Program-made: the position numbers and the translations under genes
Assembly (NCBI GenBank): GCA_951812585.1
Contig: OX638318.1
Coordinates: 2,602,380-2,666,379, forward strand
Origin: Rhodothermales bacterium
GTDB taxonomy: Bacteria > Bacteroidota > Rhodothermia > Rhodothermales > Bin80
Reading direction: 5' to 3'
DNA length: 64,000 bases
Part shown: one piece after another, positions 31,919 to 34,313 of the stretch
Layout: the number at the start of each line of letters is the position of its first letter
Position numbering within the stretch: the first letter of the stretch is position 1
Notes under the pieces: generated by a model
The model's database searches: none
Seen by the model: only the letters and a program-made list of their open reading frames with translations
What the model was told of the DNA's origin: nothing

Positions 31919-32467
31919 ATGACAAATCGTAGTGCGAGCGCGGGATGCCGCGCGTGTGGTTCAAGCGATGTGCCGTGGGCGGGTGCACTCTGTACCGACT
32001 GCTTTGCCAAGAACAGGCGTAATGCTCCTGACAGTAATGGCCGGAAATCAGAAGCATCCTTTGCGTGCCGCCAATGCGGTGCCGCCAAGGCACCATGGGA
32101 GGGCGCCATGTGTCGCGATTGCTTTCTTGAGGGAAAGCGGTCAACGTCTGGCACGTTCAAGTGTGTGGCGTGCGGCCAAGCCGATGCACCATGGGAAGGA
32201 GCAAAATGTAAGCCATGCTTCATGAAAAGCAGGCAGCGCACCGCAAAGGCGGTGTGTGTAGCATGCGGCAAGGAAGAGGCACCGTGGCAAGGAGCTCAGT
32301 GCAACGACTGCTTTGGTTCGAAGCGCGAGCAGTCCGGTACTTCGCACCGGTGTTCTGCCTGCGGTCGGATGGCGGCTCCGCATCCCGGCGTACTGTGCAC
32401 GCATTGTGATGCTATTGACAGCCGCATAAGCACCGAAGAGCCGCTCGACGATGATTTCCCGTTCTAG
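31919..32467 (+). CDS. Five-fold tandem zinc-ribbon protein with SSB-like C-terminal tip (182 aa)
   Basis: Not a family I can name. The chain contains 20 cysteines arranged as five identical modules C-x2-C-x11-C-x2-C, at residues 10-28, 50-68, 82-100, 113-131 and 145-163. The consensus within modules is CxxCGxxxAPWxGAxCxxCF. The modules are joined by short basic linkers of 12-21 residues, the first the longest. The protein ends LDDDFPF, which closely resembles the single-stranded-DNA-binding protein tip DDDIPF that recruits many replication and repair enzymes. There is no signal peptide or membrane span. A zinc-binding nucleic-acid protein that enters the SSB-partner network is the best guess. 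gpsA follows 158 nt downstream. Confidence 0.85.
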   Translation: MTNRSASAGCRACGSSDVPWAGALCTDCFAKNRRNAPDSNGRKSEASFACRQCGAAKAPWEGAMCRDCFLEGKRSTSGTFKCVACGQADAPWEGAKCKPCFMKSRQRTAKAVCVACGKEEAPWQGAQCNDCFGSKREQSGTSHRCSACGRMAAPHPGVLCTHCDAIDSRISTEEPLDDDFPF

Positions 32468-32625: not shown

Positions 32626-33660
32626 GTGCAGACCCACATCGCTGTGCTGGGTGCGGGGAGCTGGGGTACAGCACTCGCGGTCCAGTTGGCCGAATCAGGA
32701 CACGATACCACGTTGTGGGCACGTCGCCCGGAGATTGCGGCGCCCATAGCGCAGAGTCGGTACAACCCCACCTACCTGCCGTCGGTGCGGATACCCAGCA
32801 CGGTCCAGGTGACGACAGATTTTGCGGCTGCAGCCGCTGCGGGCAGGGTGTGGGTGATTGCCACGCCTTCGCATGTTGTGCGCAGCATCGGAGCAAGGCT
32901 ACGTGCGTTTGCTGTCAAGGGGCAGATCGTTGTTTCCGTAGCCAAGGGTATCGAGAACAAGACACTGCTCACGACAACGCAAGTCCTGGGAAGCGAACTT
33001 GGGCCCGCAATCTCTGCAGATTTCATAGGCGTGTTGTCGGGGCCCAGTCACGCGGAAGAGGTGGGGCAGGGCAAGCCCACCACGCTGGTGGCTGCGGCCC
33101 CCAGTCGGCAAGTGGCAGAAAGAATTCAGCAAGTATTCATGTCGCGGCGACTGCGTGTGTACGTCACCGATGATGTGCTCGGCGTAGAGATCGGGGGATC
33201 GGTCAAGAACGTGATCTCAATTGCGGCCGGCATCAGCGACGGCATCGGGTACGGAGACAATGCCAAGGCGGCGCTTATAGCGCGTGGCTTGGCGGAGATC
33301 CAGCGGTTGGGCGTGGCCATGGGTGCACGAGCGGAAACATTCATGGGTCTGGCCGGCATTGGAGATCTGGTAGTAACATGCACCAGCCGACATAGCCGCA
33401 ACCGCTACCTGGGTGAGCAGATCGGGCGTGGCTTTGCGGTGCAGGCGACGCAAGACAACATGCAGATGGTGGCCGAAGGGGTGCGCACCACCGCATCGGT
33501 GCGGGCCCTGGCGCGTCGCTACGACATCGAAATGCCCATAACGGAAGCCGTGTACGCTATTCTCTTTGAGGGCAAGAAGCCGGGTGACGCCGTGCAGGAG
33601 ATGATGACGCGTTCCGCAACGCACGAGACCTGGCTGCACAGCGAAACGCCGCCCAGATGA
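32626..33660 (+). CDS. gpsA: Glycerol-3-phosphate dehydrogenase [NAD(P)+] (344 aa)
   Basis: Reduces dihydroxyacetone phosphate to sn-glycerol 3-phosphate for phospholipid synthesis. The N-terminal nucleotide motif is IAVLGAGSWGTALAVQLAE. GPSHAEEV, EIGGSVKNVISIAAGISDGI and FMGLAGIGDLVVTCTS (with catalytic lysine in the SVKN segment) are family signatures. The GTG start at 32626 places the dinucleotide motif at the usual distance from the N-terminus. The stop overlaps the start of the AlbA_2 gene by 4 nt. Confidence 0.95.
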   Translation: MQTHIAVLGAGSWGTALAVQLAESGHDTTLWARRPEIAAPIAQSRYNPTYLPSVRIPSTVQVTTDFAAAAAAGRVWVIATPSHVVRSIGARLRAFAVKGQIVVSVAKGIENKTLLTTTQVLGSELGPAISADFIGVLSGPSHAEEVGQGKPTTLVAAAPSRQVAERIQQVFMSRRLRVYVTDDVLGVEIGGSVKNVISIAAGISDGIGYGDNAKAALIARGLAEIQRLGVAMGARAETFMGLAGIGDLVVTCTSRHSRNRYLGEQIGRGFAVQATQDNMQMVAEGVRTTASVRALARRYDIEMPITEAVYAILFEGKKPGDAVQEMMTRSATHETWLHSETPPR

Positions 33661-34313
33661 CATTGCAAAACCTCGCAGACTGCATCGCCCAAGGCGAAGG
33701 GCCACACCTGGAGTTCAAGCAGCGGGTGCCAGCGCCCGAGCGAATGGCTAAAGAGATCACCGCCTTCGCCAACACGCACGGCGGCCAAATACTGATCGGT
33801 GTAGGCGACGCTGGTGCGGTGACAGGCGTCAAAGATGCAGCAGAAGAAGAATACGCGCTGCGACAGGCATTGGAGCAGTACGTGGAACCGCCCGTAGCAC
33901 TGGAAACTAACCGCGTGCGCATAAGCAGAAAGCGAGACATCATCGTGGTCACCGTACATGAAAGTCCCGACAAGCCGCACTTCGTATCAGATCTCGTTTC
34001 GCTTCGTCGCACTGCCTACGTCCGGGTGGAGGACAAGAGCGTTGAAGCGAGCCGGGAAGCCCGTCGTCTGATGCGCCGCCGGGAAACCGACCGTGACATC
34101 CTCATCAAGGTGGGCGACAAGGAGCGTGTGCTGTTGCAATATATGGCAAGCCATGGGTGCATCACGGTGGCGCAGTTCGCAGAGGCGGCCGCGATTCCGC
34201 GTTCGCTGGCCTCTCTGACCCTGGTGCACCTGACCCGCGCTCGCATGTTGTCCCACCATGCGGATGTGCATGAAGACTACTTCACCCACGGTCCAGAGCT
34301 GACGCAGGCATGA
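33657..34313 (+). CDS. AlbA_2 (Schlafen-type) putative DNA/ATP-binding protein (218 aa)
   Basis: The N-terminal part has the AlbA_2 pattern: GEGPHLEFKQ near residue 15 and EITAFANTHGGQILIGVGDA, then VTGV. The middle strand VVTVHESPDKPHFV and 'TAYVRVEDKSVEAS' complete the domain by about residue 140. The last 75 residues look like a winged helix (VLLQYMASHGCITVAQFAEA ... SLASLTLVHLTRARML). Such proteins are often transcription regulators or poorly defined nucleases/ATPases. It is translationally coupled to gpsA, an unusual partner. Confidence 0.85.
   Translation: MTLQNLADCIAQGEGPHLEFKQRVPAPERMAKEITAFANTHGGQILIGVGDAGAVTGVKDAAEEEYALRQALEQYVEPPVALETNRVRISRKRDIIVVTVHESPDKPHFVSDLVSLRRTAYVRVEDKSVEASREARRLMRRRETDRDILIKVGDKERVLLQYMASHGCITVAQFAEAAAIPRSLASLTLVHLTRARMLSHHADVHEDYFTHGPELTQA

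Follow-up and report, generated by a model that had tools for sequence, protein, structure and literature searches.

An orphan Cys4 zinc-finger protein of Rhodothermales with an SSB-like C-terminal tip: a candidate docking adaptor for SSB-interacting proteins

We identified in a Rhodothermales genome an orphan gene encoding an array of Cys4 zinc-finger modules that ends in a tip resembling that of the single-stranded-DNA-binding protein (SSB). SSB is the main coat protein of single-stranded DNA, and its tip (SSB-Ct, DDDIPF) recruits repair enzymes. The gene, located in the 64,000-nucleotide stretch of DNA analyzed here (the window), is real, rather fast-evolving and under purifying selection. 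We propose, with a probability of about one half, that its product is a lineage-specific array of fingers whose SSB-type tip serves to dock SSB-interacting proteins. The class of tip is itself known; what is new is an SSB docking peptide on a scaffold unrelated to SSB. The features of the gene and its neighbors are collected in Table 1.

Table 1. Positions in the window of the zinc-finger gene, its modules and the genes that follow it.
Feature	Position	Strand	Basis or remark
Orphan gene, five-module Cys4 zinc-finger protein with SSB-like C-terminal tip	31919..32467	+	182 aa plus stop; orthologues; purifying selection
Module 1, C10-C28, CRACGSSDVPWAGALCTDC	31946..32002	+	Cys spacing, module comparison
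Module 2, C50-C68, CRQCGAAKAPWEGAMCRDC	32066..32122	+	Cys spacing, module comparison
Module 3, C82-C100, CVACGQADAPWEGAKCKPC	32162..32218	+	Cys spacing; single-module model pLDDT 86
Module 4, C113-C131, CVACGKEEAPWQGAQCNDC	32255..32311	+	Cys spacing, module comparison
Module 5, C145-C163, diverged (no Trp), CSACGRMAAPHPGVLCTHC	32351..32407	+	Cys spacing, module comparison
C-terminal linker	32408..32446	+	Weakly conserved among orthologues; pLDDT <50 from residue 167
SSB-like tip DDDFPF	32447..32464	+	Orthologues FDELPF, PDDLPF; own SSB DDDLPF
gpsA, glycerol-3-phosphate dehydrogenase	32626..33660	+	Next downstream in all three family holders; GTG start at 32626 proposed
SLFN AlbA_2-domain protein	33657..34313	+	Then topoisomerase IV-type subunits from 34393 onward; conserved neighborhood

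The reading frame is open from ATG to TAG and encodes 20 cysteines, all of which fall within C-x2-C-x11-C-x2-C modules (positions 10, 13, 25, 28; 50, 53, 65, 68; 82, 85, 97, 100; 113, 116, 128, 131; and 145, 148, 160, 163), leaving no cysteine to spare. None of 100,000 residue shuffles produced five modules, the best of them giving two. The initial annotation had described five identical zinc-ribbon modules with the consensus CxxCGxxxAPWxGAxCxxCF. The modules are indeed alike in the spacing of their cysteines but not in sequence, the others being 26-44% identical to module 3 (34 columns). Similarly, the consensus describes modules 1 to 4 (with VPW in module 1) but not module 5 (CSACGRMAAPHPGVLCTHCD), which has retained the cysteines and the CG and lost both the Trp and the closing Phe. 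Across the three orthologues described below, all 14 modules have the same cysteine spacing and the CG, and 12 carry the Trp. Promoter and terminator scans returned nothing above shuffles.

AlphaFold modeled the whole protein poorly (pLDDT 62, pTM 0.23), as expected because there are three sequences and the modules are beads on linkers, and the Foldseek matches of this poor model (CTCF and the like) were set aside. When one module was modeled with all 14 modules as the alignment, the pLDDT rose to 86 and the predicted fold consisted of a short strand bridge (knuckle) at the first CxxC, a loop bearing the Trp and a helix starting at the second CxxC. The nearest solved structures were treble-clef-type fingers, none of them significant, among them the zinc-binding domain of ClpX (Z 2.8) and the C-terminal finger of IleRS (Z 2.1); Foldseek matched the module model to small-subunit ribosomal (uS14-type) chains with E values of 1.2 or worse. 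The H. pylori IleRS finger and the predicted module can be superposed over 28-29 residues at 0.6-0.9 Å rmsd, but the Z score is low and no Pfam match to that finger family was among the listed results. Hence "zinc ribbon" is a loose term for these modules, the model being a knuckle plus helix whose shape appears closest, without a significant match, to treble-clef-type fingers. Fingers of this type (IleRS, the ClpX zinc-binding domain, GATA, nuclear receptors) differ from the protein in that they do not form tandem arrays with an SSB tip. The Cys4 geometry and the predicted fold together suggest that the modules bind zinc.

Two relatives of the gene were found, both upstream of gpsA in Rhodothermales MAGs (G005 and G001) of the same family, and perhaps the same genus, as the window's genome (3.2 Mb, one contig). 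The orthologue in G005 (L045:8010-8627) encodes 205 aa and five modules, and that in G001 (L046:1287-1763) encodes 158 aa from the likely ATG and four modules. Searches of 114 order-, 245 class- and 395 phylum-level genomes revealed no homologue beyond these three, scans of genome contigs recovered the same two relatives and no others, and the plasmids, phages and viral contigs searched contained no match to the protein. The family is held by 3 of the 245 genomes of the class. The open reading frame is a real gene because both orthologues are 44-45% identical to the window protein, with weakly conserved linkers, and dN between orthologue pairs is ~0.5-0.8 against a dS that is saturated or nearly so. 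At the protein level it changes approximately three times faster than the product of the neighboring gpsA.

The window protein ends in EEPLDDDFPF. Its last residues, LDDDFPF, had been noted for their resemblance to the SSB tip, and this likeness extends to the SSB of the same genome, which ends in EDDDLPF. A search of the whole 3.2-Mb genome for D-[DE]-hydrophobic-P-F followed by a stop codon returned two sites, the single SSB gene and the zinc-finger gene (one site with the reversed pattern as control). Homologues with unrelated C-termini, which the initial annotation had raised as evidence against its reading, did not appear: both relatives end in D-[DE]-L-P-F, and the Pro and Phe are invariant in the three tips (DDDFPF, FDELPF, PDDLPF). 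The D-[DE]-[FL]-P-F motif was kept among the three orthologues, whereas the stretch from the last Cys to the tip diverged and the number of modules changed. The SSBs of the two relatives end in DTDLPF (G005) and EEDDLPF (G001). The end in G005, ADTDLPF, has fewer acidic residues than usual, and the zinc-finger protein of this genome ends in FDELPF. With the pattern relaxed slightly to [DE]-[DE]-hydrophobic-P-F, a search of 16 genomes of the bacterial family recovered 25 sites, some of which end in TGG and are not ends of open reading frames. The true ends belonged to SSB in most genomes, to the zinc-finger family in all three holders, and to few others, namely one truncated ATPase-like ORF in G003 and two short ORFs that may not be coding. 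The ATPase-like ORF (L035, contig 46, about 2950) ends in NNDDLPF and has a weak match to AAA_25 (22.5 bits versus a cut-off of 27). In these 16 related genomes, the motif is nearly private to SSB and the zinc-finger family. Judging from the two comparisons that three members of one bacterial family allow, the SSB-like tip appears to be selectively kept.

The protein had not been assigned to any family from its sequence and, consistent with this, none of those known in Pfam, NCBIfam, PHROGs or PADLOC fits, the scans returning generic CxxC matches or nothing. Matches to C2H2 finger profiles rest on eight-residue CxxCG pieces and were discounted. NMD3 (PF04981) scored 27.6 bits against a cut-off of 24.9, but we attribute the match to generic CxxC similarity because its best stretch covers profile positions 1-44 of 243 and several modules match. 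The double zinc ribbon DZR_2 (PF18912; 26.2 bits, below the curated cut-off of 27) shares the tandem CxxC pairs and matches all three orthologues weakly, whereas the window protein consists of finger modules and a tail only. With SSB (PF00436), all three orthologues share an acidic-hydrophobic-Pro-Phe carboxy terminus after a flexible linker; however, the body of the window protein is a Cys4 finger array with no sign of an OB fold, and no PF00436 match was obtained at E values up to 1, the genome's SSB being a separate gene. Since that SSB is normal, replacement of SSB by the zinc-finger protein, as the initial annotation had contemplated, is unlikely. We found no described family joining a Cys4 array to an SSB tip in the open-access literature. 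DdrB is also a non-SSB protein said to bear an SSB-like C-terminus, although no Cys4 array is described for it (PMC3834827), and its family was absent from the Pfam and NCBIfam scans of the zinc-finger protein. The purported motif of DdrB is dispensable for radioresistance (PMC3834827), which by analogy would counsel caution in reading SSB-like tips as functional.

The order of the zinc-finger gene, gpsA, the AlbA_2 gene and the topoisomerase IV-type (parC-, parE-type) genes is identical in the three holders; gpsA and the AlbA_2 gene are not a repair operon, which counts against the docking reading. In the window, the AlbA_2 gene shares its first four bases with the end of gpsA. The plsY and gpsA genes are adjacent in 12 related genomes with readable flanks and 73 kb apart in the window's genome, which has one copy of the family at each edge of the gap. 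The second copy (L002:1471-1920; G000:C1, about 2561568-2562017) follows plsY directly and looks degenerate, with 149 aa, irregular CxxC spacing and the end TELPA in place of a DELPF-like tip. We ruled out that an island had been inserted between plsY and gpsA: the intervening 73 kb are syntenic with G005, and the split therefore looks like a rearrangement. The copies sit at both edges of the gap as if a tandem pair had marked the rearrangement point. In G005, two transposase-like ORFs (L045:4832-7036; IS110-like and IS5-like by eye), without counterpart in the window, separate an mmsA-like gene from the zinc-finger gene.

As a docking adaptor, the protein would have a body of four or five Cys4 zinc fingers, each folded independently and strung as beads on short linkers, and the Ala-Pro-Trp loop of most fingers could stack on a base. 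A flexible linker would present the D-[DE]-[LF]-P-F-COOH end, a peptide class shared with SSB, and SSB-interacting proteins (RecO, PriA and the like) would accept it in their SSB-binding pocket. The docked enzyme would in this way be delivered to whatever nucleic acid or protein the fingers hold; alternatively, the protein could compete with SSB for the enzyme. We infer from the identity of the peptide class that the tip may dock. The partners of E. coli SSB bind via the acidic tip alone, which carries peptide binding to RecO, PriA, chi and PriC. For PriA and chi a stretch of nine residues is enough, and a tip peptide of 15 residues is bound about 46-fold more tightly by RecO than by PriA (PMC7145534). 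Nucleic-acid binding by the fingers, the weakest step of the scheme, is plausible and not uniformly indicated. In two orthologues the Trp-bearing modules together form a basic array (net charges of +9 and +11); in the third they do not (net charge of -1), which weakens the case for simple nucleic-acid binding. A more ambitious proposal, that a new finger-array family independently acquired the SSB tip and provides an SSB-independent recruiting platform, or an antagonist, for RecO/PriA-type enzymes at sites that the fingers select, is tentative, and we give it somewhat less than an even chance.

Two rivals to the docking adaptor stand out: the array may bind protein or RNA instead of DNA, or the acidic tail may be auto-inhibitory. 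The array could be a protein-protein or ribosome/RNA-associated module comparable to those of ClpX, uS14 and small zinc-ribbon translation proteins, in which case the tip would dock to DNA repair incidentally or serve another purpose. The likeness of the module model to uS14, the IleRS finger and the zinc-binding domain of ClpX (Z 2.8) and the profile matches to eL40/eL37 and Zn-ribbon RNA-binding proteins (E values of 0.04 or worse) point in this direction. All of these matches are, however, non-significant and mirror a common Cys4 geometry, and the SSB-like tip points to DNA metabolism; we consider this reading unlikely. Alternatively, the acidic C-terminus could fold back on the array as a nucleic-acid mimic, tuning its DNA or RNA binding and recruiting no partners. 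There is documented precedent for such auto-inhibition in Hfq, and the same authors cite the SSB tail alongside it (PMC5606850). In two of the three orthologues the array is basic and the tail behind it acidic (array/tail net charges of +9/-4 and +11/-13), but the array of the third is not basic. Furthermore, acidity alone would be enough for auto-inhibition, yet the Pro-Phe end and the hydrophobic residue preceding it were retained and the linker was not. Auto-inhibition is, in our judgment, a rather poor prospect.

Two further readings deny the tip or the gene a function. The DDDFPF tail could have arisen fortuitously, as short motifs do, and been kept by descent without a docking function in a family of three members with one shared ancestor. 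This is improbable, considering that D-[DE]-[LF]-P-F has been kept beside a diverged linker despite (near-)saturated synonymous sites and differences in more than half of the residues. In addition, SSB is the only other bearer of the motif in the window's genome, and the chance rate of the motif is ~0.01 per 3000 proteins by a rough estimate that assumes amino-acid frequencies. A decaying mobile-element or phage remnant, rather than a working host gene, could account for the narrow spread (3/245 genomes of the class), the transposase-like ORFs that adjoin the G005 copy and the degenerate second copy beside plsY. Against it stand vertical inheritance with the same downstream gpsA, AlbA_2 and parC-/parE-type genes in the three genomes, the purifying selection on the gene and the lack of matches in phages, plasmids or viral contigs, which leave this explanation very little probability.

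SSB is generally regarded as a hub; in E. coli its DDDIPF-type tip is presented to no fewer than 17 partner proteins (PMC7145534). The zinc-finger protein, a good orphan known from three genomes, may be a second docking platform, unrelated to SSB, for the repair machinery that SSB recruits. Scanning whole genomes for proteins other than SSB that carry the tip suggests itself as a simple way to further hidden members. If the docking reading is true, a conserved protein unrelated to SSB yet bearing its tip would establish the tip as a portable address label, and a single peptide and a single residue, the last Phe, would be enough to test rewiring of the SSB hub directly.
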